Origin: an uncultured Clostridia bacterium | Lineage (GTDB): Bacteria > Bacillota > Clostridia > TANB77 > CAG-508 | NCBI GenBank assembly: GCA_944389475.1 | Contig: CALXMM010000001.1 | Coordinates: forward strand, 62,001 to 126,000 | DNA: 64,000 bases | Direction: 5' to 3' | Shown: in pieces, positions 7,535 through 20,235 of the stretch | Layout of the letters: every line of letters begins with the position of its first letter | Numbering within the stretch: position 1 is the stretch's first letter | Notes under the pieces: model-generated | Told to the model about the DNA's origin: nothing | Databases searched by the model: none | Seen by the model: the letters and a program-made list of their open reading frames with translations, nothing else | Position numbers and translations under genes: made by a program

Positions 7535-9385
7535 ATGAAAAAGGTAAAATTAGGTATATTACCTTATATAATAATATTATGTTGTTTGGCTTTTGTAATT
7601 GTAAAAGTAAGGGATACTCGTTTAGTAGATAGTTCAATACAATATACACCAAGTAATAACTTGCAATTAATAGGAAAAGATGAGTGGAATACATTACAAC
7701 AAACAACAGAAAAGATAAAAAATGAAAAGTCTATATTAATATATGATGATACAAATGAAAATGGTGTTACTACTTTTCAAAATGTTCAATATGTTTTAAA
7801 TTCCATGGGAGTAGATGTTGTACCAGTGAAAATAAGTGAACAGAGCCAATATAAAGATATTTCTGATTATGACACAATGGTAATCTGTTTGGAAAATTTA
7901 GAAAATTTAGCTTATTCAAGTAGTGAACTAGAAAATTGGGTAAGCAGTGGAAAAGGAATATATTTTACTCTACCTTTACAAAATGATGAATATCTTAAAC
8001 CATATGCAGATTTATTAGGAATAGAAGATCCAAATGATATTTCTACAATAGAATATAAAAATATGACATTTGCAGATGATTTTTTAATTGGAGCTAAGGG
8101 AAAAGAATTTTATGAAGACACCATAAATGGTAGTGGTTTAAAAGTAAATTTAAAAGATGATGTTACAATCCATGTAACTGAAGCAGAAGATTCAGGTAAT
8201 CCAATTTTATGGAATCTTCAATATGGTGATGGCTTTGTATCTGTTTGTAATGCATATTTATTAGGAGATAAGGTAACAAGAGGATTAATTGCTGCTGGAT
8301 ATGCTGAACTACATAATTGCTATGCATATCCTGTTATTAATTCTTCAATGTACTGTATAGATGATATGCCATCACCAATTCCAACCGGATATAATGAAAT
8401 AATAAATAAACAATATCATTGTAATATGGAAGACTTTTATTTTAATATTTGGTGGCCAAGAATGAAAAGTCTTACAGAAAAATATGGTATAAAGTATTCA
8501 GGATTTATAATACAGACATATGAGGATAACACAGAACCACCATATGATAATAAAACTTATATGGAAACCTCAAAATATTATGCTAATTCATTGTTAGATT
8601 CTGGTGGCGAGCTTGGAATTCATGGATATAATCATCAATCCTTAGTTTTTGAAGGATTTGATTATAGGGATGATAAGGTTCATTATAAACCATGGAAGAA
8701 TTTTAATGATATTGCTGAAGCTACTAGAGCTGTAATTGCTTTTGCAAAAGAGATAGCTCCAAATGCAAACATAACAACATATGTAGCACCTAGCAATATA
8801 ATCAGCCAGTATGTATGGAAAGAGATGGAAAAAAACATACCAGAAATTAAAGTGTATGCAGGTGTTTACATAGGAAATGAAGCAGAGATGGTACAAGAAT
8901 TTGAGGCAAAGGAAGATGGAATAGTATATGTTCCAAGAACAGATTCTGGAATGGATTTAGATTTAGATGTACAAAGTGAATTCTTAATGTATAACGAATT
9001 AAGTTTTCATTATGTTCACTCCAACTTCCTTCATCCAGATGATGTAATCGATGTAGATAGAGGGGCAAATGAAGGTTTTGAAACATTATTTGGAAAATTT
9101 GAGAACATGGTAAAAACCTTAAATGCTTCAGGTATAAGAAATACAACAGTTTCTGAAGGAGGAGCTGCTGTTCAAAGATATTGTTTAACATCATGTAAGC
9201 AAAATTTTGATGATGGAACTTTAAAACTTGAAGTTAATGGAATAAAAGATGAAGTATATTATTTTGTTAGATTAAATAATGGAGAAAAAATCAAAAATAT
9301 AGAAGGAGCAGAATATAAAAAAATTAATGATAACTACTATTTATTAAAAATAAATCAAAAAGATGTAGTTATAGAAATGGAATAG
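7535..9385 (+). CDS. PelA-like (DUF2194-type) extracellular polysaccharide deacetylase
   Basis: 616 residues with an N-terminal signal anchor (about 7-24), so the rest is outside the cell. Residues ~60-250 resemble a class-I glutaminase-like fold (YDTMVICLENL, GKGIYFTLP). From ~268 a CE4-type deacetylase region follows: an aspartate pair in MYCIDDMP (residues ~275-276) and H363xxxH367 in GIHGYNHQS, the expected Asp-His-His metal site. In pel systems PelA deacetylates the GalNAc-rich polymer; Gram-positive clusters carry a deacetylase-only PelA at this place. I see no separate GH166-type hydrolase domain here. The match to DUF2194 is from memory of the family, not a search. Confidence 0.75.
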   Translation: MKKVKLGILPYIIILCCLAFVIVKVRDTRLVDSSIQYTPSNNLQLIGKDEWNTLQQTTEKIKNEKSILIYDDTNENGVTTFQNVQYVLNSMGVDVVPVKISEQSQYKDISDYDTMVICLENLENLAYSSSELENWVSSGKGIYFTLPLQNDEYLKPYADLLGIEDPNDISTIEYKNMTFADDFLIGAKGKEFYEDTINGSGLKVNLKDDVTIHVTEAEDSGNPILWNLQYGDGFVSVCNAYLLGDKVTRGLIAAGYAELHNCYAYPVINSSMYCIDDMPSPIPTGYNEIINKQYHCNMEDFYFNIWWPRMKSLTEKYGIKYSGFIIQTYEDNTEPPYDNKTYMETSKYYANSLLDSGGELGIHGYNHQSLVFEGFDYRDDKVHYKPWKNFNDIAEATRAVIAFAKEIAPNANITTYVAPSNIISQYVWKEMEKNIPEIKVYAGVYIGNEAEMVQEFEAKEDGIVYVPRTDSGMDLDLDVQSEFLMYNELSFHYVHSNFLHPDDVIDVDRGANEGFETLFGKFENMVKTLNASGIRNTTVSEGGAAVQRYCLTSCKQNFDDGTLKLEVNGIKDEVYYFVRLNNGEKIKNIEGAEYKKINDNYYLLKINQKDVVIEME

Positions 9386-9389
9386 AATT

Positions 9390-10802
9390 ATGAAGATTTG
9401 TTTTATATTAGAAGGATGTTATCCATATGTTTATGGAGGAGTATCTACGTGGGTAAATCAATATATTTTGTCAAAACCAGAGCACGAATTTATACTATTA
9501 ACAATTGGTGCCAATAAAAGAGATAGACATAAATTTGTATATGATATACCGAAAAATGTAATTAAAATAGAAGAAATATTTTTAGATGAAGATGTAGAGG
9601 TTAATTCAAAAGCAAATAAATATATAAGCTCAGATATATTTTTAAAAGAAATAAAAAATCTTATTTTGGGCGAAAAGGTTAATTGGAAAAATATATTTGA
9701 TGAAGTAAAAAATCCAAATTGGAATGATAATGACTTTTTTGAAGGAAAACAATATTTAAATATTATAAATGATATAGCAAAAAATGAACTTAAGGAAGAT
9801 GGCTTTTTAGAAGTATTTTTTGGAATTAAGTCAATGCTAAAGCCATTATTACAATTATTAGCAATACCAATACCGGATGCAGATATTTATCATTCAGCTT
9901 CAACAGGATATGCAGGAATTTTAGGAGCGCTAGCAAAATATAAAACTAATAAACCATTTATCCTAACTGAGCATGGAATATATCCAAGAGAAAGAGAAGA
10001 AGAGTTGCTTGCTTGCGATTGGTTGGATGATTCAATGAAAAAAATTTGGATACAGTTCTTTTACAATATTTCGAGTATTGCGTATGAAAAAGCCACATTT
10101 GTAACATCTTTATTTGAGGCTTCTAAAGCAACTCAAATTGCTTTGGGATGTGATAAAGATAAATGTTATGTTATTCCAAATGGAATAAATTATAAACAAT
10201 ATGAAATAATGCCGGACAAAAAAGAAAATGGATTTACAGATATTGGAGCATTTATACGTTTTTCTAGAATTAAAGATGTAAAAACATTATTATATTCATT
10301 TTATGAAACGCATGCTAAATGCAATAATGCAAGATTACATATTTTTGGTGCAACTAACGACAAGGAATATAAAAAAGAATGTTTAGAAATAATAGATTCT
10401 TTAGGACTAAAAGAATGTGTAACCGTTTATGGACAAATAAATCCTTTAGATTATATGCCACGTATGGATTTTACAATATTAACAAGCATTTCAGAAGGTC
10501 AACCACTTACGATACTGGAATCATTTGCAGCTAGGAGACCTGTTGTATGCACGAATGTAGGATGTTGTAGGGAGCTAATAGAAGGAAATAACGATGGAAT
10601 TGGAAAAGCAGGAATTTGTTGCACACCTATGGACATATCTGGAATAGCAAGGGCAATGATTACTTTATGTCAAGATAAAGATTTATGTAAAAAACTTGGT
10701 AGAAATGGTTTAGAAAGAGTAAAGAAAAATTATACATACGAAAAAATGATAAATGGATATTTTGAATTATATGAAAAGGGGATAAAAAATTGGCAGGGAT
10801 AG
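9390..10802 (+). CDS. pelF: PelF-type glycosyltransferase (GT4)
   Basis: 470 residues, cytoplasmic. PelF is the retaining GT-B enzyme that polymerises UDP-GalNAc/GlcNAc in Pel synthesis. The opening CFILEGCYPYVYGGVSTWV is the hallmark of PelF. It continues with FILTEHGIYPREREEE and VIPNGINY, and a GT4 EX7E motif (E369 and E377 in SEGQPLTILE), then RRPVVCTNVGCCRELIEG. Length is close to the family's. It starts four bases after pelA-like and overlaps the PelG start by 13 bases, so the two are probably translationally coupled. This is the best recognised gene of the operon and anchors the identity of the others. Confidence 0.93.
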   Translation: MKICFILEGCYPYVYGGVSTWVNQYILSKPEHEFILLTIGANKRDRHKFVYDIPKNVIKIEEIFLDEDVEVNSKANKYISSDIFLKEIKNLILGEKVNWKNIFDEVKNPNWNDNDFFEGKQYLNIINDIAKNELKEDGFLEVFFGIKSMLKPLLQLLAIPIPDADIYHSASTGYAGILGALAKYKTNKPFILTEHGIYPREREEELLACDWLDDSMKKIWIQFFYNISSIAYEKATFVTSLFEASKATQIALGCDKDKCYVIPNGINYKQYEIMPDKKENGFTDIGAFIRFSRIKDVKTLLYSFYETHAKCNNARLHIFGATNDKEYKKECLEIIDSLGLKECVTVYGQINPLDYMPRMDFTILTSISEGQPLTILESFAARRPVVCTNVGCCRELIEGNNDGIGKAGICCTPMDISGIARAMITLCQDKDLCKKLGRNGLERVKKNYTYEKMINGYFELYEKGIKNWQG

Positions 10803-13627
10803 GTTTTGAACTAAATAAATTAATAAATAAAAAGAATTTTTTTAGTAAAGTAAGTGGATATTTTTATACAGCTAGTTCATGTTTAGGCTCTATGATATTA
10901 GGATTTGTTTTAATATTTGTAATACAAGCAATAGCTAGAGCTTTAGGGCAAGATAGTATAACATCTCAAAGATTTACAGGTTATATAACAAATACGGTAT
11001 TTTTATCAATGATAATTTTTGGATTTTTTTCATTAGTATTATCAAGATATATTTCCGATTTATTATATAGCAAAAAAGAAGAAAGATTATTATCTTCCTT
11101 TTGGGGAATTGTAGCTATAATTATTCCAATTTCTATATTAATTTATACCCCAATTTTGTTAATATCAAAAGTGCAATCCATTGACATTATACTTTTATTG
11201 GTATTACTTTCAGAATTTGTTTGTACTTGGATAGCTACTTTATATGTTACAATATTAAAAAATTATAAAAAAATAACTTTAGCATTTTTAATATCCATGA
11301 TTATATCTATTTTAATAATTCTAGCTTTTTATTATATTAAAATGATTAATATGGAAATAATGCTTTTAATAATTATTGCAAGTTATGGATTTGTTTTAAC
11401 ATTTTTAATAAATCTTTTACGAAAAGAATTTAAAAGCGAAGACAAAAATACATATGAATTTCTAAAATATTTTTCTAAATATCCAATATTGGCTCTTACT
11501 GGTTTATTCACAACATTAGGCACATTGATTCATTTTTATATAATGTGGTTTAGTCAATATGGAAATGAAATACAAGGATTAATACATAGTTCGCCAACCT
11601 ATGACTTTCCGGCTATTATTGCATATTTTTCAACTATTATTACTAGCATAACATTTGTAGCAATATTAGAGCCACATTTTTATAAAAAATATGCTAAGTA
11701 CTTTAAACTTATAAATTCTTCAGGGAATTATAAAGAATTGCAAGTAGCAAAACAAGAAATGGTATTAACATTAAAAGTTGAATTAAGAAACTTAATTATT
11801 AGGCAAATTGTAACAACAATATTATTTATAATAGTAATTAGTAAGATATTGTCAGATATTAATATTGGTATGAGCAAAACTATGATAGAGACTTTTAAGG
11901 TTTTATGTGCGGGTTATTCATTACAGGCAATAGGAAATGTAATATTACAATTACAGCTTTATTTTTCAGATAATAAAGGAGCTTTTGTTACTTCTGTTGT
12001 CTTCTTGTTAGTAACAACTGTAGTAACAATCTTAACTCTATTTTTAGATATTTCATTCTTAGGTGTAGGAGTGTTATTTGGTGGAGCTTTAATGGCAATT
12101 GTAGGCGATAAAAGATTAGAGAATTATTTAAATGATTTGGAATTTAATGTGTTAAATCAAAAAGAGAAGGAAACGAAAAATAGACTTTTTGTGTTAATAG
12201 AAAGAGCTTCTTTAAAAGTAAGAAAAATAAATAAAAATAAAATAATTAATCGAATAGCTAGTATAGGAACAATTGTTATATTAGTTTGCGTACTTGCAGT
12301 TAATGTCTTTAAAGGAGAAAGAGTGTCAACACAAACATATTTACCTCAAGAAACGGATGATATTCTTAATAATCCGGGAGTAGGATTAGCACCATGGGCA
12401 AAAAGCGAAAGTACATTACAATTAAATACGAAATTAGTATATATAGATTTATCATGGGCTGAGTGGGAACCAAGAAAAGGAGTTTATGATTACGAAGGTT
12501 TCGAAAATAAAAATCATATAAACGAATATAAACAGCAAGGAAGACAAGCGGTATTTAGATTTTATATGGATTATCCATCAACTGAATCACATAAAGATAT
12601 TCCTGATTGGCTATATAACGAAATTGATGGTGATGGAACTTGGTATAATACTAGTTATGGAAAAGGATTTTCTCCAAATTATAACAATCAAAAATTAATA
12701 GATTATCATAAAAAAGCTATTGAGGCATTTACACAAAGATATGGAGATGATGATTTCTTTGTATATGTTGAATTAGGAAGTTTAGGACATTGGGGTGAAT
12801 GGCATGTAAACAAAGATGAAGGACTTAAAGGAATGCCAGATTATGATATAAGAGAAAAGTATGTAGAGCCATATGTTTTAAATTTTAAAAAATCTAAGTT
12901 TTTGATGAGATACTCTTTAAAAGAAACGGAAAAATATAATTTTGGTTTATATAATGATATGACAGGTGATCAGAATGAAACAAATTATTGGTTTGAAGGT
13001 ATGCAAGGAACTGAAGTGTGGGAACAAACCGAAAATGAAAAGATGGCTAATAATATAAATAAATGGAAAACAATGCCTATAGGGGGAGAATTTGCATCTT
13101 CATATAGTAATGCATATTTCCTAAAGGATCATTTAGATATGACAATCTTTTTATTAAAACAAAGTCATCAATCTTTTATTGGACCAAAAGTAATAATAGA
13201 TGAAGAAGATGGTGCTAACTATAAAAAGCAAATGGATGAAATATTAAAAGTATTAGGACATAGATTATATGTTGAGAGAGCTACAATTAAAAGGCAAAAT
13301 TCTAATAAGTTAAATGTATCTTTAAATTTAAAAAATGATGGAACAGCACCAATATATACGGATACTCAATTAGCAATATATATTTATGATAATAATGGTA
13401 ATATGATATCTAAATCTGTAGCAACAAACTTTAATCCTGGAACAATATTACCAGATAATGTTGCTCAAAATGTAAATTTACAACTAGATACTAGCAATTT
13501 AGAAAGTAATACAACTTATAATTTATGTATAGCTCTAGAAGATAGAAACACAAATAATCCAATTATAGAATTAGCAATGCAAAAATATAAAGATAAGGTT
13601 TACAAAATTGGACAATTCAATTGGTAA
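10790..13627 (+). CDS. pelG: PelG flippase fused to a DUF4832-like glycosidase-type domain
   Basis: 945 residues from a TTG start with an AAGGGGAT site; MAGIGFELNKL is the usual PelG opening. Residues 1-460 hold 12 hydrophobic helices of a MOP-family flippase such as PelG, which exports the Pel polymer with PelD, E and F. A thirteenth helix at ~485-506 follows. Residues ~515-945 resemble a DUF4832-type TIM-barrel: LNNPGVGLAPWA, LSWAEWEPRKGVYDYE, VELGSLGHWGEWH (about 659-671, two candidate acidic catalytic residues) and MPIGGEFAS, ending in a beta-sandwich-like stretch. With twelve helices the flippase ends inside; the thirteenth would place the extra domain outside. Ordinary PelG is about 450-500 residues, so this is a real fusion and not an overlap of two ORFs. 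Confidence 0.88.
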   Translation: MAGIGFELNKLINKKNFFSKVSGYFYTASSCLGSMILGFVLIFVIQAIARALGQDSITSQRFTGYITNTVFLSMIIFGFFSLVLSRYISDLLYSKKEERLLSSFWGIVAIIIPISILIYTPILLISKVQSIDIILLLVLLSEFVCTWIATLYVTILKNYKKITLAFLISMIISILIILAFYYIKMINMEIMLLIIIASYGFVLTFLINLLRKEFKSEDKNTYEFLKYFSKYPILALTGLFTTLGTLIHFYIMWFSQYGNEIQGLIHSSPTYDFPAIIAYFSTIITSITFVAILEPHFYKKYAKYFKLINSSGNYKELQVAKQEMVLTLKVELRNLIIRQIVTTILFIIVISKILSDINIGMSKTMIETFKVLCAGYSLQAIGNVILQLQLYFSDNKGAFVTSVVFLLVTTVVTILTLFLDISFLGVGVLFGGALMAIVGDKRLENYLNDLEFNVLNQKEKETKNRLFVLIERASLKVRKINKNKIINRIASIGTIVILVCVLAVNVFKGERVSTQTYLPQETDDILNNPGVGLAPWAKSESTLQLNTKLVYIDLSWAEWEPRKGVYDYEGFENKNHINEYKQQGRQAVFRFYMDYPSTESHKDIPDWLYNEIDGDGTWYNTSYGKGFSPNYNNQKLIDYHKKAIEAFTQRYGDDDFFVYVELGSLGHWGEWHVNKDEGLKGMPDYDIREKYVEPYVLNFKKSKFLMRYSLKETEKYNFGLYNDMTGDQNETNYWFEGMQGTEVWEQTENEKMANNINKWKTMPIGGEFASSYSNAYFLKDHLDMTIFLLKQSHQSFIGPKVIIDEEDGANYKKQMDEILKVLGHRLYVERATIKRQNSNKLNVSLNLKNDGTAPIYTDTQLAIYIYDNNGNMISKSVATNFNPGTILPDNVAQNVNLQLDTSNLESNTTYNLCIALEDRNTNNPIIELAMQKYKDKVYKIGQFNW

Positions 13628-13739: not shown

Positions 13740-13863
13740 CTTTGACTTTACATTAAAAAATTTTTAGTATAGAAATAATGAACAAATGCCTAAAATTTGT
13801 ACATTTCAACATTATGTATACCTGCTAAAACTCCCTTATCCGTAAGAAAAATTTAGAAAATTG

Positions 13864-13892
13864 TTTACAAATTGGAAAATTTGGTATATAAT
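13864..13892 (+). promoter_or_regulatory. SigA-type promoter of the 34-codon peptide / surface-protein locus
   Basis: TTTACA at 13864-13869, a 17-base spacer and a perfect TATAAT at 13887-13892. It is the only convincing promoter between the pel-type operon and the LPXTG gene. Confidence 0.75.
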
Positions 13893-13961
13893 AGTTTCGG
13901 TTTTTATTTTATACATAAATGAGAATATAGTTGGAGTTAAAGATAAAAAGAGGGGTTAAAA

Positions 13962-14066
13962 ATGGAAAAAGTAAGCAAAGGTATTAATTCCGTAAGTAAA
14001 TATAATATTGGAATTAATTCAAATGGCAAATATTATTTTTGTCACATATTTTGCCATGCACTTTAA
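13962..14066 (+). CDS. 34-residue leader or signal-type peptide
   Basis: A short ORF with an AGAGGGG site 6 bases before ATG. The peptide has an internal repeat (GINSVSKYN then GINSNGKYY) and a distinctive C-terminus FCHIFCHAL with two Cys-His pairs. It sits inside a complete transcription unit: promoter at 13864 and a strong terminator at 14073. Two stem-loops fold within the coding sequence: a 9-bp ATTAATTCC/GGAATTAAT stem near 13983-14018 and one spanning 14024-14056. It could be a leader peptide for attenuation of the downstream sortase operon, a secreted signalling peptide, or a modified peptide precursor; no processing or export genes lie nearby. No family recognised. Confidence 0.5.
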   Translation: MEKVSKGINSVSKYNIGINSNGKYYFCHIFCHAL

Positions 14067-14072
14067 TATGAT

Positions 14073-14128
14073 AAACTTAAGATTTTAATAGCAATTAATG
14101 TAAAGAAATCTTAGGTTTATATTTTTTT
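14073..14128 (+). terminator. Terminator between the 34-codon ORF and the LPXTG gene
   Basis: AAACTTAAGATTT (14073-14085) pairs with AAATCTTAGGTTT (14106-14118) and is followed by seven T residues. It begins six bases past the ORF's stop codon. Only 42 bases separate it from the next start codon, so the sortase operon probably depends on readthrough. Confidence 0.8.
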
Positions 14129-14170
14129 ACAAAATTTTTATCTTCTAACAAAATTAAGGAGGGGGAAAGT

Positions 14171-15181
14171 ATGAAAAGCTTTACTAAAAAGCTAGCCATT
14201 TTACTAATTGCATTATTAACAATTGTAACATTAATGCCTTTAAGCAAAGTATTTGCTGCTAATGAAGACATACAATTAGTTAAAGCTACAAATGGTAATA
14301 TTGTTATTTATGTAAATGGATTAGAAAAGAATGATTTTGCTTATGCTTTATCAAATAAAGAGGGAGCAACTGAAGGAGAATTAACATATAAAAAATCAGT
14401 GCTAGATAGTGAAAATAGTGAAGAAGCAAATTATGTAGCAGTAGTTACACCAGAAGAATTAAGTCAAAATGGTTATTTATATGTAAAGAAAAATGGTGAA
14501 GATGTAGCAAATACAATTCAAATTAATGCAGATGTAAACAATATGTTTACACAAGAACAAATGAGCTTAGTTGAAAATACAACTAAAAGAATTGCAACAG
14601 AAGTTATAACAGATTCTAACTCTAGAGAGGAAACTGTAAATGAAGTTAAATATACATATACAGTTGGAGGTTTAAAAATTACAGATGACCAAACTGCAAC
14701 ATATTCATATGTTATGGTTAAATTACCAGCAGATGGATATACTAATCTTCAAAATTTAGCTAATGAACTAAATATGAATGATAAAACTGTATGCGATAGA
14801 ATACAGCTAGCTAACGAATTTTACAATCAATATCAAGCATTATTAGATAATGCTAATGCAGAGAATAGTTGGAAAGCAGTAGAGAATATGCAAATATTAC
14901 AAAATGAAGATTATGAAAATAATGAGAACTATGTTGTATTATTAAAAAAGGTTGCAACAGATGGAACAACAACATATGATGCAAAATTTATGAATACAGA
15001 GTTTACAAATACAGAAACTGTAATACCAGCTAGTACTCAAGAAGTTAAAAAACAAGAAACTTCAAAATTACCTATAACAGGTGACAGTATTGCATTATTC
15101 GTTATTTTAGCAGCATTAATAATTATGGCAATATTTGTTTATGTAAGAATGAGAAAAGCAAATAAAAAGGCAGATAAATAA
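14171..15181 (+). CDS. LPXTG-type cell-wall-anchored surface protein
   Basis: 336 residues with a signal peptide (1-29, ending VFAAN), an extracellular region of no recognised family, and a classical sorting signal at the C-terminus: LPITG at residues 300-304, a hydrophobic helix (about 308-327) and a basic tail RMRKANKKADK. A sortase would cut between Thr and Gly and link the protein to peptidoglycan or to a pilus partner. An unusually strong AAGGAGGGGG site precedes the ATG. The next gene, the sortase, overlaps the stop codon by one base (TAATG), so substrate and enzyme are translationally coupled. Confidence 0.85.
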   Translation: MKSFTKKLAILLIALLTIVTLMPLSKVFAANEDIQLVKATNGNIVIYVNGLEKNDFAYALSNKEGATEGELTYKKSVLDSENSEEANYVAVVTPEELSQNGYLYVKKNGEDVANTIQINADVNNMFTQEQMSLVENTTKRIATEVITDSNSREETVNEVKYTYTVGGLKITDDQTATYSYVMVKLPADGYTNLQNLANELNMNDKTVCDRIQLANEFYNQYQALLDNANAENSWKAVENMQILQNEDYENNENYVVLLKKVATDGTTTYDAKFMNTEFTNTETVIPASTQEVKKQETSKLPITGDSIALFVILAALIIMAIFVYVRMRKANKKADK

Positions 15182-15768
15182 TGAAAAATAGAATTTATAA
15201 AATAATCTTTTGTATTTTAATCATTTTAATTATATTTGTTATAGCTCTAATTCTTATAAAAGAAATGAAGAGCAATGAAAATGAAAAGAAAAATCAAGAG
15301 GTTGTAGAAAATTTTTCAAGTATAGATAATAGTCAAAAACAAGAATTAACATTAAATGGCTACAAAGTAATAGGTTTAATAAAAATTCCGGCAATCAATC
15401 TAGAATATCCTATTTTAGATATGGAAATTTCTAATCCGGAGGAAGCAAAGGCTCCAATGAAACTTGCAATAATTAAATATTGGGGCGGAGAAGTTAATGG
15501 ATATGGTAACTTATCACTTGCAGGCCACAATAATTATAATGGAACAATGTTTGGTAAAACCAAGAATTTAAAAGTAGGAGATATAGTTGAATTAACAGAT
15601 TTAAATAATCAAACAATTCAATATCAAATATATGATATTTTTAAAACAGATCCAAACGATGTAACAATATTGGAAACAAAGGATAAAACAATTAGAGAGG
15701 TTACTCTAATTACTTGTACAAATGGTAATAGAGAAAGATTAATATTAAAAGCCAAAGAAATGATATAG
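15181..15768 (+). CDS. Sortase
   Basis: 195 residues with an N-terminal membrane anchor (about 5-28) and an extracellular sortase fold. The catalytic set is visible: His116 in LAGHNNYN, Cys179 in TLITC and Arg186 in NGNRERL. Sortases are membrane transpeptidases that join LPXTG proteins to lipid II or to pilin lysines. The short length, TLITC motif and coupling to a single LPITG gene suit a dedicated housekeeping-like or pilus-assembly sortase; I cannot assign the class safely. The following adhesin gene starts 15 bases downstream. Confidence 0.9.
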   Translation: MKNRIYKIIFCILIILIIFVIALILIKEMKSNENEKKNQEVVENFSSIDNSQKQELTLNGYKVIGLIKIPAINLEYPILDMEISNPEEAKAPMKLAIIKYWGGEVNGYGNLSLAGHNNYNGTMFGKTKNLKVGDIVELTDLNNQTIQYQIYDIFKTDPNDVTILETKDKTIREVTLITCTNGNRERLILKAKEMI

Positions 15769-15783
15769 AAGGAGGAGTTTTTG

Positions 15784-18700
15784 ATGGCAAAGCCAAGTAA
15801 GAAAGCGACAATTATTACAGTTGCTATATTAGCAGTTCTTTTAATAGTTGCTATTGTTGCTGTTGCAGTCTTTTTAAGAGATAAAGGTTCAACAGAAGCT
15901 GCTGGAATGGAATCAGAACAAACTGTAGGTCAAAATGAAAATTCAGAAACAAAGACATCTGAAGAACCAAATCAAGAGACTCAAAGTGCACAAGAATCTT
16001 CTACACCAAGTGGTACAAATACATTAGGTGAGATAGCTTCTAATGCTAATCAACAAACAACTAATGAAGGAACAACACAAAATGCTGGAACACAAGGAAC
16101 TACAACAAGTACAGGAACAGCAGGAACAACTAATGCTGGAACATCAAATACAAATGGTTCTAGCTCAAATGTAGGTACAAATAGTTCAAATGGAACTACT
16201 ACATCTACAGAAAATATTCAAGAATCAACAATCACAAGAACTGATATAGTTAATATACCTGAAAGAAAGGTTTCAGAGGATCATAATGTTTGGTGGGAGC
16301 CAATGAGCATTAGTGCATTATTAGCTTCTGCAAATCCAACAACTAATGATATTGTTGATGTAGAAAAATCAGGAAATGAAGAAGTAGCACAAGGTGAAAC
16401 AATAAACTATACAATAAAGGTTACAAATAAAACAGATAAAAAATTAGAAGGAATAGAAGTTAAAGATGTTTTACCAGAAGAAGTAGATTTAAATTCTATT
16501 CAATATGAAACTGAACCAAAAATGGTTGAAGGAAACATTGTAAAATGGAATGTTGATATTGAACCAAACGCATATGTAGAAATTAAATTTTCTGTAAAAG
16601 TTAAAACTACTGTTGCACCAAATACAGAAATAAAGAACTCAGCTATTGCAAATGGTAAAACAAGTAATGAAGTTATAACAAAAGTAGATGAAGCAACTGT
16701 ATCTGTACCAGTATCAAAAGAGATACAAGCAGGAGATAGTGATGCAGCAAAAGCATATCCAATAAGTGGAGCAGTTGTAACATTAAAGGGAACAGATGGT
16801 TCAACACAAGATGTAACATTAAATAAAGATAATAATTATGCATATGAATTTAAAGATTTAGCTAAATATGATGCACAAGGAAATGAAATTACATATACAG
16901 CAGAAGAATCAGCAATAAAAGGAGAAGAAGAAGAATTTAAACATTATAAACAAGATGAATCAAAAGGAGAAGGACAATTTGTAAACACATTTGACCCATC
17001 AACTGTACAAGATGAAACAACAGAACTTCCTGTACATAAAGATATCGTTACAAATAATAGTGATGCAGCAAAAGCATATGCAATAACAGGAGTAGTTGTA
17101 ACATTGGAAGGAACAAATGTAGAACCAATAACATTAAATGAAGCAAATAACTATACAGGAAAATTCACAGGCTTAAAGAAATATGATGAAGAAGGAAATT
17201 TAATTAAATATAATGCAGAAGAATCAGCAATAGCAGAAGAAGAAGCAGCATTTAATCATTATACAAAAACAGAAAATGAAGAAGGACAATTTGTAAATAC
17301 ATTTGACCCATCAACAGTGCAAGATAAAACAGAACTTACAGTTACAAAGACTTGGGATGATATGGATAACAATTTTAAGACTAGACCTAAAAGTGGTGCT
17401 ATTAAAGTAAACTTAAAAGCTAATGGTAAAATAGTACAAAAAGATGTTTCTATAAAGGCTAGTGAAGGTTGGACATATACTTTTAGAGATTTAAATAAAT
17501 ATGATTCAACTGGAAAAATTATAGATTATACTGTTGAAGAAGAGCTAATTCCAAATTACAATTATCCACCAACATATAATAAAACTGATAATGGATACGA
17601 AATTGTAAATAAAGCTGATTTAAAAGAAACAAGTATAGATAAAACAGTTGTAGGAATTAAGCAAGTAGGTTCAGAAAATCCCAATACAATAGACACAGAA
17701 ATTCCACAACCAGATTTAGATGAAAATGAAATAGAAAAAACTTATAAATTAAATGCTAGTTTAGGTGATACTATTATTTACAATATAAGAGTAAATAATG
17801 ATGGAAATACAAAATTAAATAATGTTACAGTAACTGATGACAAAGCAGTAACAATTATAGGAGTAACACCTATTAAAAATGGAACTAAAGGAAATAAGAC
17901 TGAAGTTAATATTCCAACAACAGCAAATACTAATTTATTATTAGCAGCAGTTAATAAAACAACATTAGATGTTGGAGAAGGATATATCTTTACAGTATCA
18001 TATACATTAGGTCAAGCTGATATTGCTGATGTATCAGAATTCTCTAATAAAGCAACAATAGATTCTGATGAAACAGATCCAGAATCAAGTACATCAACTG
18101 TTAATACAAATGTAAAATTTGACCACGAGTTAACAAAGAAAATTATGTCTGTTGAAGGAAGAGATGTATCTAACCCAACACAAACTATAGTAGATTCAAC
18201 AACAATAGTTAATACATATTCTGACAAAGCAAATAAGGGCGAAACTATAACATATAAAATAACAGCTGAAAATAAAGGAACTACAACAATTAGTAATTTG
18301 AAATTAACAGATAATAGAGATGTATATGTAGAATCAATAAAATTCTCAACACAAAAAGATAGTATTCCAGTTAATAAAAACATAACAGTAGAAGAGAACT
18401 TATTAAATAGTGATACTTATGAATTAGCACCAGGAGAAACAGTAGAAGTTGTTGTAACATATGAAATTGGAAGTATGAGTAAGGACAATACAGGTGCAGA
18501 AGAATTAAACATTGAAAATATAACAAACCTATACGGAGATGCTTTTGATCCAAGTTCAAATGATCCAAATAATAGTTACAAAGATGTAAAAGATGAAGCA
18601 AGAGCAGAAATTACTGCAACAATGAAAGCTAATATATCAATTAGTAAAAAATCAGACAAAGGAAATAAAGAACTAGAACCAGGAGATAAAATAAAATATA

Positions 18701-20235
18701 CAGTAACATTAACAAATAGTTCACCTGTAGAAGGAACAGCAAAAGTTAAAGAAAGTGTTCCAACTGGTACAACTTTAGTTAGTGATGTAACAGTAAAAAC
18801 ATCAAAATCAGGAACTAATAATCCTACAAAATTAAGTCCAGAACAAATTGAGACTATGTCAAACGGAGAGTTAGAATTAACAGTACCTGGTAATGGAAAT
18901 GTAGTAATAACATTTACTGTTGAAGTACAAAATTCAGCAATAGCAACAACAGTAAAAAATCAAGCATCAATAGCCAATGAAGATAAAACTTCAGAAAAAA
19001 TAGAAAATCCAATTAAAAAAGCTTTAAATATTTATGAAACAAAAACAGAATTAGGTAAACAAAGTGTTGTTATAGTAGTAGATATGACATTAAGTTTAGC
19101 TGCAGGTGTTGAAACAGATAATACTGACAGATTAGCATATGCACCATTAAATGCTGATGGAAGTATTAACTACAGAGCAGGATATGAAAATACAAGATGG
19201 TTTAAATTAAAAACAGCATTAGATAGCTTTATAGATTCATATTTAGGAGAGAATCCTGGAAATAAAAAATCTGTTGCAATTGTAGGATTCTGTAAAGATA
19301 TAGTTTTAGATAGTAAAGATATACTTTTAGATAGTGATGGATTTATAACTAACGCTGAAACAGCAAAAGATCTTTATAAAAATGTATTTACATTTGACCA
19401 ATATAAAGCAGCAGTTGATTTTGGACTAAGTTGCAAAGAAGACCCAGATGAGATGTTAGATTTCTTAGAGGATCATGGTAAAGATCGTGATGACCAAACA
19501 CCATTTAAAGAAAATAAAGATGGAACATATGACATAGATGTTGATGTTTTATCATTCCTTGATGACATAGGATTTTATGATGGTAAAAAATGTGGTTTAG
19601 GTTCAGGAACTAATATTCCTATTGGATTAAAAGAGGGAGAAAAATTAGTTTCATCACAAACTGAGAAAAATATTCCAACGGATTTAATAGTAATTACTGA
19701 TGGAGAAAATAACAAAGGTGAAAAATCAGATATTGCTAAATATGCAGAAGAAGTTATGAAAAATTCTGTAAAGGATAATGATAATAAAGAAGTAAATTCT
19801 AAATTATATGCAATTGGATTTACTGAAGATGCAAAAACATTTAAAGATTTATTAAAAGGTCATATGACAAAATATTATACAGCAACTGATACAACATCAT
19901 TAAACAATGCTTTTACAGCAATAAAAGGAGATACTGAAAGAAATCCAGAACCAATTAGGGCAACAACAAGTAATGAAGGATGGGTATCATTAAACGATAT
20001 TTCTTTTGCAGATAATTCAGTAATTACATTCTACACTGGAAGTGCAATACAAACAGATACTTCTACTACAATTGTAAAATATGATAATTTTGAAGAATTT
20101 AAGAATGCTAAAGATAAGACAGAAAAAGCATATTATAATTCATCAAATAATACATTTAATTTAAAACAATTCTTAATTGATAACAATGTAAAGGCGGGAG
20201 CTACAATTAATATGGAAGTATATACTGTAGAATAA
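15784..20235 (+). CDS. Giant surface protein: N-terminal anchor, DUF11/Cna-B repeats, VWA domain
   Basis: 1483 residues from the ATG at 15784 (GGAGGAG site; the TTG just before is unlikely). Layout: signal-anchor helix (~9-31), Gly/Ser/Thr/Asn linker (~38-150), a DUF11-like beta domain (~175-300), two near-identical Cna-B-like repeats (~308-412 and ~416-513, each ending FVNTFDPSTVQD), a third Cna-B-type domain (~517-620), further DUF11-like domains (~640-1075) and a von Willebrand A domain (~1092-1380) with MIDAS residues DMTLS (1100-1104) and ITDGEN. It ends with a small domain and lacks any LPXTG signal, so it appears held by its N-terminus, unusual for a VWA/Cna-B adhesin beside a sortase. 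Likely role: adhesion or a surface fibre. Confidence 0.85.
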   Translation: MAKPSKKATIITVAILAVLLIVAIVAVAVFLRDKGSTEAAGMESEQTVGQNENSETKTSEEPNQETQSAQESSTPSGTNTLGEIASNANQQTTNEGTTQNAGTQGTTTSTGTAGTTNAGTSNTNGSSSNVGTNSSNGTTTSTENIQESTITRTDIVNIPERKVSEDHNVWWEPMSISALLASANPTTNDIVDVEKSGNEEVAQGETINYTIKVTNKTDKKLEGIEVKDVLPEEVDLNSIQYETEPKMVEGNIVKWNVDIEPNAYVEIKFSVKVKTTVAPNTEIKNSAIANGKTSNEVITKVDEATVSVPVSKEIQAGDSDAAKAYPISGAVVTLKGTDGSTQDVTLNKDNNYAYEFKDLAKYDAQGNEITYTAEESAIKGEEEEFKHYKQDESKGEGQFVNTFDPSTVQDETTELPVHKDIVTNNSDAAKAYAITGVVVTLEGTNVEPITLNEANNYTGKFTGLKKYDEEGNLIKYNAEESAIAEEEAAFNHYTKTENEEGQFVNTFDPSTVQDKTELTVTKTWDDMDNNFKTRPKSGAIKVNLKANGKIVQKDVSIKASEGWTYTFRDLNKYDSTGKIIDYTVEEELIPNYNYPPTYNKTDNGYEIVNKADLKETSIDKTVVGIKQVGSENPNTIDTEIPQPDLDENEIEKTYKLNASLGDTIIYNIRVNNDGNTKLNNVTVTDDKAVTIIGVTPIKNGTKGNKTEVNIPTTANTNLLLAAVNKTTLDVGEGYIFTVSYTLGQADIADVSEFSNKATIDSDETDPESSTSTVNTNVKFDHELTKKIMSVEGRDVSNPTQTIVDSTTIVNTYSDKANKGETITYKITAENKGTTTISNLKLTDNRDVYVESIKFSTQKDSIPVNKNITVEENLLNSDTYELAPGETVEVVVTYEIGSMSKDNTGAEELNIENITNLYGDAFDPSSNDPNNSYKDVKDEARAEITATMKANISISKKSDKGNKELEPGDKIKYTVTLTNSSPVEGTAKVKESVPTGTTLVSDVTVKTSKSGTNNPTKLSPEQIETMSNGELELTVPGNGNVVITFTVEVQNSAIATTVKNQASIANEDKTSEKIENPIKKALNIYETKTELGKQSVVIVVDMTLSLAAGVETDNTDRLAYAPLNADGSINYRAGYENTRWFKLKTALDSFIDSYLGENPGNKKSVAIVGFCKDIVLDSKDILLDSDGFITNAETAKDLYKNVFTFDQYKAAVDFGLSCKEDPDEMLDFLEDHGKDRDDQTPFKENKDGTYDIDVDVLSFLDDIGFYDGKKCGLGSGTNIPIGLKEGEKLVSSQTEKNIPTDLIVITDGENNKGEKSDIAKYAEEVMKNSVKDNDNKEVNSKLYAIGFTEDAKTFKDLLKGHMTKYYTATDTTSLNNAFTAIKGDTERNPEPIRATTSNEGWVSLNDISFADNSVITFYTGSAIQTDTSTTIVKYDNFEEFKNAKDKTEKAYYNSSNNTFNLKQFLIDNNVKAGATINMEVYTVE

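Follow-up and report, generated by a model that had tools for sequence, protein, structure and literature searches.

Attenuators of the trpL type consist of a leader open reading frame (ORF), hairpins and an intrinsic terminator. In Streptococcus gallolyticus the pil1 (and pil3) locus places a promoter, a ribosome binding site (RBS), a 38-codon leader ORF and an intrinsic terminator before an LPXTG pilin/sortase operon; pil1 pilus expression is high when the leader ends 4 bp before or inside the terminator and low when the leader start is lost (PMC3894217). It is thus known from that species that a translated leader and a terminator can control sortase-anchored adhesins. In Enterococcus, the prgQ/IRS1 region of plasmid pCF10 combines a short peptide gene and a leaky terminator with surface adhesin genes; in that system the peptide acts as a pheromone inhibitor, and termination is assisted by the antisense RNA anti-Q (PMC8265641). 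In Clostridioides difficile, c-di-GMP riboswitches precede sortase substrates such as CD2831 (PMC6447587). In the open-access literature, to judge by titles and abstract starts, leader-peptide attenuation of sortase operons was found in PMC3894217 alone, and nothing on this theme that names Clostridia was found, which does not prove absence from print.

Here we describe a leader locus before a sortase operon of uncultured gut Clostridia. It shares with pil1 all parts listed above, and in silico the spacing between leader stop and hairpin corresponds in 6/6 sequences to the pil1 ON arrangement. It differs by lacking GCAGA or any other tandem repeat in the leader, by a conserved RNA fold inside the ORF, by unrelated sequence and by its different Bacillota class. 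It resembles prgQ in the parts named above but shows no sign of constraint on the peptide, and the one promoter-like site on the minus strand of the ORF is not preserved in L081, the one relative inspected by eye. Unlike trpL-type attenuators it has neither a shared, mutually exclusive antiterminator nor a run of one regulatory codon. With the C. difficile riboswitches it would share RNA-level control of sortase-anchored adhesins in Clostridia, as proposed here, but no Rfam riboswitch is present at the leader.

Layout of the locus

The window, by which we mean the whole analysed stretch of 64,000 nucleotides, is part of a contig (C1) of a draft genome of 1.61 Mb. Between a Pel-like exopolysaccharide gene and the sortase operon it holds, in this order, a promoter, a 5' leader, an RBS, a 34-codon ORF and a terminator. 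A preliminary description had called promoter, RBS, ORF and terminator well formed, and had placed the operon 42 bases after the terminator. Scans and folding located each of the four, the ATG at 14171 does lie 42 bases past the T-tract end at 14128, and the observation is confirmed. The arrangement is more than chance, because the whole of it is conserved in five further operons. The features are as follows.

13839-13850, + strand: motif copy 1, TCCGTAAGAAAA, likely DNA operator beside the -35 box; the motif lies upstream of most operons of the family
13864-13892, + strand: promoter TTTACA-N17-TATAAT, the operon's own; 11/12 consensus match
13899-14170, + strand: transcribed leader; start presumed from the -10 box
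13950-13955, + strand: RBS of the leader ORF, GAGGGG; GAGGG or near variants in relatives
13962-14066, + strand: leader ORF, 34 codons; open frame in 6/6 sequences, 34-38 codons long
13968-14064, + strand: three-way junction RNA fold within the ORF (closing helix P1, hairpins P2 and P3); minimum-energy folds of 6/6 ORFs
13982-14019, + strand: hairpin P2 (TATTAATTCC / GGAATTAATT); 98% of cells paired, 8/9 pairs invariant
13989-14000, + strand: motif copy 2, TCCGTAAGTAAA, within the ORF at the P2 loop edge; TTCCGTA in the ORF of 5/5 relatives
14071-14128, + strand: predicted intrinsic terminator; arms 14071-14085 / 14106-14120, T-tract end at 14128
14171-15181, + strand: LPXTG surface protein (LPITG), operon gene 1; weak match, below cut-off, to NCBIfam EF0750_LPXTG
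15181-15768, + strand: sortase; Pfam Sortase 1.4e-23, TIGR01076 above cut-off
15781-20235, + strand: large surface protein with Cna_B and DUF11 repeats, operon gene 3; start conserved in L081-L085

Directly 5' of the sortase operon, positions 7535-13627 hold a Pel-like cluster of a DUF2194 protein, a PelF-like glycosyltransferase (DUF3492) and a PelG-DUF4832 fusion. The last of these, a PelG with a DUF4832 tail, is the upstream neighbour of the leader and has its stop at 13627.

The site at 13864-13892 is the best promoter match on both strands between 13000 and 15000. An LPXTG gene is present in nine of the 14 genomes of the genus (window's genome counted), and in all eight other same-genus operons TTTACA/T-N17-TATAAT stands 25-57 nt before the LPXTG start and aligns with the window promoter. 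In the window this distance is 278 nt, the leader unit lying in between; over the 137 bases that end at the -10 box, identity to G010 is 75%. Since the operon's promoter is this far off with the leader between, the leader should form the 5' end of the operon mRNA and the terminator should block the operon. A weak promoter-like site was found at 14126-14154 (9/12, -10 CAAAAT), in a region partly absent from all five leader-bearing relatives. A strong transcription start at 14128-14165, which the preliminary description had named as refuting its reading, is not predicted at the sequence level. In L081-L085 the gap from T-tract to RBS is only about 13-16 nt, so that a second promoter has no room there. 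We considered an invertible promoter between TACGGA and TCCGTA and rejected it: the two copies have no more than about 9 bases in common, and L095 and L106 carry both of them on the downstream side of the promoter.

Distribution and probable transfer

A sortase scan of the contigs of species genomes gave 45 loci, and in 44 of them an LPXTG ORF adjoins the sortase (none at L120). L081-L085, which are closest to the window in the sortase tree among operons whose upstream DNA is complete, all (5/5) show the window's order: promoter, RBS, an ORF 36-38 codons long, terminator, operon. The preliminary description had made its reading depend on whether operon-bearing relatives conserve the ORF; these five nearest operons do, whereas the same-genus relatives (8/8) and most others have the operon without the leader ORF. 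L086, another near relative, has 127 bases before the gene, in which the terminator 3' arm and T-tract are kept and the rest is not. At L086:1-127 the contig ends in the leader and the preceding sequence is unrelated, possibly because of a mobile-element insertion or an assembly junction. The leader-bearing rows group with L086 in the sortase tree (7 members, support 100/100), and the leader itself occurs only in a single operon clade, with 6 sequences.

A covariance model of ORF and terminator, run against 67 sources, found at E < 0.1 only L081-L085, the window and L060, which has the sequence of L081 and belongs to genome G341. Among 390 family genomes, strong scores were obtained in G000 and G341 only; the weak matches in G425, G416 (one of two places) and G007 were on inspection terminators or coding repeats. 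Weak peptide-profile matches exist, for instance in G365 at 3e-4, and the best peptide match among 94 relatives had an E-value of 0.0053. The peptide was not found away from the sortase operon at strong scores in the 390 family genomes, nor in viral contigs. Same-genus DNA matches around the RBS and start codon were discarded as ordinary gene starts such as MEKV.

The window sortase is 84-88% identical to those of the leader-bearing group and 64-68% to the nearest same-genus sortases. The window tyrosyl-tRNA synthetase (tyrS) is 87-91% identical to that of four same-genus genomes, 70% to that of G005 and 72% to that of G341. Because the sortase is closest to another genus and tyrS to its own, operon and leader have probably moved between genera, where they stand under a native-looking promoter.

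Other leaders occur in the set. L091:1874-2000, L092:1860-1988 and L094:1863-1988 are different, ORF-less leaders of 126-129 nt; in each, a hairpin encloses a conserved CCGTA(A/G)GG stretch, and the hairpin arms differ among the three. A hairpin with T-tract that resembles a terminator, unrelated in sequence, was also seen by eye in L104, some 25-75 bases ahead of the start of its LPXTG gene.

Reading frame and peptide

In all six sequences the frame of the leader ORF has no stops, as against 2-7 in each of the other two frames. RBS, start codon and frame are retained throughout, and the ORFs differ in length by whole codons, that is by in-frame indels. Random placement of substitutions keeps the frame open in all four lines with a probability of 4e-4 to 3e-3, an approximate value from a star tree rooted on L081 with L084 left out. 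Peptide pN/pS is 0.87, pooled over 14 of the 15 pairs (the near-identical pair L083/L084 was left out), which indicates that the amino acids are hardly constrained and which is also expected of structured non-coding RNA. A conserved functional protein was rejected on this value. Conservation of the peptide as opposed to just the hairpins, a check proposed beforehand, came out divided: as far as the six sequences tell, reading frame and RNA fold are both kept, in different ways, and the amino acids barely.

The peptide matched no protein family in Pfam and NCBIfam searches, and among the neighbouring genes none for maturation or export could be recognised. With pN/pS near 1 besides, the signalling or modified peptide of the preliminary description gains no support. 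Two to four Cys are present among the last 12 residues in all six leaders, compared with a background of 39 in 4952 residues (0.8%) in ten neighbouring proteins. The GINS..KY repeat pointed out earlier is real at the DNA level in the window, where 13980-14009 and 14010-14039 (30 nt) are 70% identical, and is not visible in the relatives' peptides. No tandem repeats were detected at 13860-14180, so there is no evident Pil1-style phase switch. Homopolymer runs are limited to A5/T5 in the window and A5-A6/T6 in relatives. Slippage by one base, in one direction, in the T run close to the ORF end would shift the stop into or past the stem in 6/6; runs of 5-6 are short, and the possibility is retained as no more than an idea.

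RNA fold of the ORF

Two stem-loops had been noticed inside the ORF. Both were found, and with a closing helix they make up a three-way junction, present in the minimum-energy fold of 6/6 ORFs. P1 pairs the first ORF codons with the last, P2 consists of TTAATTCC/GGAATTAA and P3 covers about codons 19-28. Compared with 1000 synonymous recodings each, the minimum free energies of the six ORFs have z values of -1.9 to -4.2. Recodings that fold as well numbered 41, 0, 21, 2, 2 and 1 of 1000, which puts all six in the top 4.1% or better, although these results are not independent since the ORFs are related. When terminator and a short 5' helix are included in the alignment, 93% of cells pair. Both-side changes occur in 5/50 pairs (shuffled mean 2.6), a number reached by 20/500 shuffles, and the covariation score was reached by 1/500. 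This modest covariation is supportive of the predicted junction, not proof of it. Neither the window nor the ten relatives' loci searched (of 45) gave an Rfam match at gathering score.

Terminator and modelled ribosome

The terminator at 14071-14128 was skipped by a simple terminator scan, its loop being longer than the rule allows. Its arms are 93% complementary, it folds at -15.7 kcal/mol (z = -4.1 versus shuffles), and its 3' arm with the T-tract (AAATCTTAGGTTTATATTTTTTT) is identical in 6/6. In the window it starts 4 bases past the leader stop codon; across the six the stop lies between 3 nt inside the terminator stem and 4 nt before it. A ribosome was parked in silico at the stop codon with a footprint of 10 nt beyond. 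In 6/6 this changed the terminator from -13.3 to -20.1 kcal/mol into -2.6 to -7.1 kcal/mol with loss of contact to the T-tract, whereas with the ribosome four codons upstream of the stop the terminator stayed at -13.3 to -17.5 kcal/mol (6/6). On this modelled collapse, a fully translated ORF should allow readthrough.

As a control, a stem scan found a terminator-like stem at 32/139 genes, of which four (the LPXTG/sortase junction in L081, L082, L083 and L085) were removed by hand as false. Among 28 ordinary terminators of the window and the 45 relatives' loci, stop and stem are at most 4 nt apart in two, so that the spacing is not decisive alone; nor is close spacing unique within the compact clade. 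No antiterminator pairing with the terminator 5' arm common to the six leaders was found, and the three-way junction is compatible with the terminator, hence not a classical antiterminator.

The TCCGTA/TACGGA motif

The hexamer TCCGTA/TACGGA (with CCGTAAG/CTTACGG) is present in 34 of 43 upstream regions, some of them near-copies (the window's plus those of 42 loci, without L086, L112 and L120), compared with a mean of 3.3 and a maximum of 9 in 200 shuffles. Of the two copies in the window, the first is 13 bases away from the -35 box on its 5' side and the second falls within the ORF, at the edge of P2. Genome-wide YCCGTAAGNAAA has five matches, two of them at the leader locus, 150 bp apart. 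The motif may be a transcription factor site, a candidate operator that would add a second regulatory layer. Among the literature matches listed, titles and abstract starts pointed to unrelated uses only. At some sites among the window and L081-L125 operons the motif is near-palindromic (TTTCCGTAAGGAAA). Genome-wide copies also occur upstream of another gene (L128), and one lies, by eye, beside the end of a reversed dnaA-like gene (L129), perhaps the origin region.

Discussion

We regard it as fairly likely that the leader is a translation-dependent transcription attenuator before the LPXTG/sortase/Cna_B-adhesin operon. By sequence and comparison, the order of the parts, the conserved promoter, the conserved frame, the conserved fold and the terminator are established. 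The attenuator reading, put forward in the preliminary description, gains from the upstream promoter being the operon's conserved one, from the lack of room for a promoter after the terminator in relatives and from the joint conservation of ORF and terminator. RNA polymerase would start from 13864-13892 and make a leader of roughly 230 nt that ends by default at the terminator 14071-14128. A ribosome at the leader stop would cover the 5' arm and detach the hairpin from the T-tract, letting the polymerase enter the operon. With the leader untranslated, or the ribosome halted at least four codons earlier, the terminator would form and the operon be off. Collapse of the terminator under a ribosome at the stop is a computed result; we infer that it occurs in cells and that the fold has a role. 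The three-way junction, an obvious candidate for translation-rate control, is proposed to set how often ribosomes get through the leader. That it senses a ligand, a protein or temperature and so gates ribosome arrival at the stop, riboswitch-like through translation of its own codons, is a speculative and rather unlikely extension.

Several findings could also be read without an attenuating ribosome. A structured cis-regulatory RNA, riboswitch-like or protein-binding, might tune the terminator, the ORF being incidental or only a reporter of the fold. The fold being stabler than synonymous recodings, the junction in 6/6, pN/pS near 1 and the ORF-less L091, L092 and L094, whose different hairpin leader has the same CCGTA motif, are in line with such an RNA. 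We nevertheless hold it to be possible at best, since RBS, start codon and frame are kept in 6/6 with in-frame indels, fold and terminator are not mutually exclusive, and the window and ten relatives' loci gave no Rfam family. The DNA itself could be the switch, with a regulator bound at the TCCGTAAG motif at 13839 and, within the ORF, at 13989, acting by looping or as a roadblock and leaving the ORF a by-product. Enrichment of the motif (34/43 versus 3.3 in shuffles) and the two of only five genome-wide YCCGTAAGNAAA matches 150 bp apart suggest as much, but frame, RBS and terminator are left unexplained and most motif-bearing operons are without a leader ORF, which makes this scarcely probable.

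Other readings give the peptide or its codons the leading part. The complete unit of promoter, RBS, ORF and terminator, and the at least two Cys in the last 12 residues in 6/6 (0.8% in ten neighbouring proteins), would suit an independent small gene that has a terminator to itself and encodes a functional peptide, be it a signal, a modified peptide or a small toxin; the operon would then depend on weak readthrough or on a second, weak promoter. Yet its amino acids are hardly constrained and fit no family, the neighbouring genes include none recognised as serving maturation or export, strong scores in 390 family genomes and viral contigs placed none away from the operon, and the promoter is the operon's own; we consider a small gene improbable. 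The clustering of Cys codons near the stop (background 39/4952) also recalls trp-type attenuation, in which stalling at these codons when charged tRNA-Cys is low would decide readthrough. We give this very little credence: the six have no common antiterminator partner of the 5' arm, on which ground cysteine attenuation was rejected, and the operon has no evident cysteine link. Moreover, the last Cys is the final codon in L085 but precedes it by three codons in the window, so that stalling would have opposite effects in the two and the model is inconsistent.

Taken as an attenuator, the leader is conserved and probably gated by translation, and it is unusual in that reading frame and RNA fold overlap. 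The pil1 layout recurs here in uncultured gut Clostridia with unrelated sequence and free of repeats, which suggests that this solution arose more than once. As frame and fold are kept but the amino acids hardly, the leader offers a clear test of the act of translation, rather than the peptide, as the signal.
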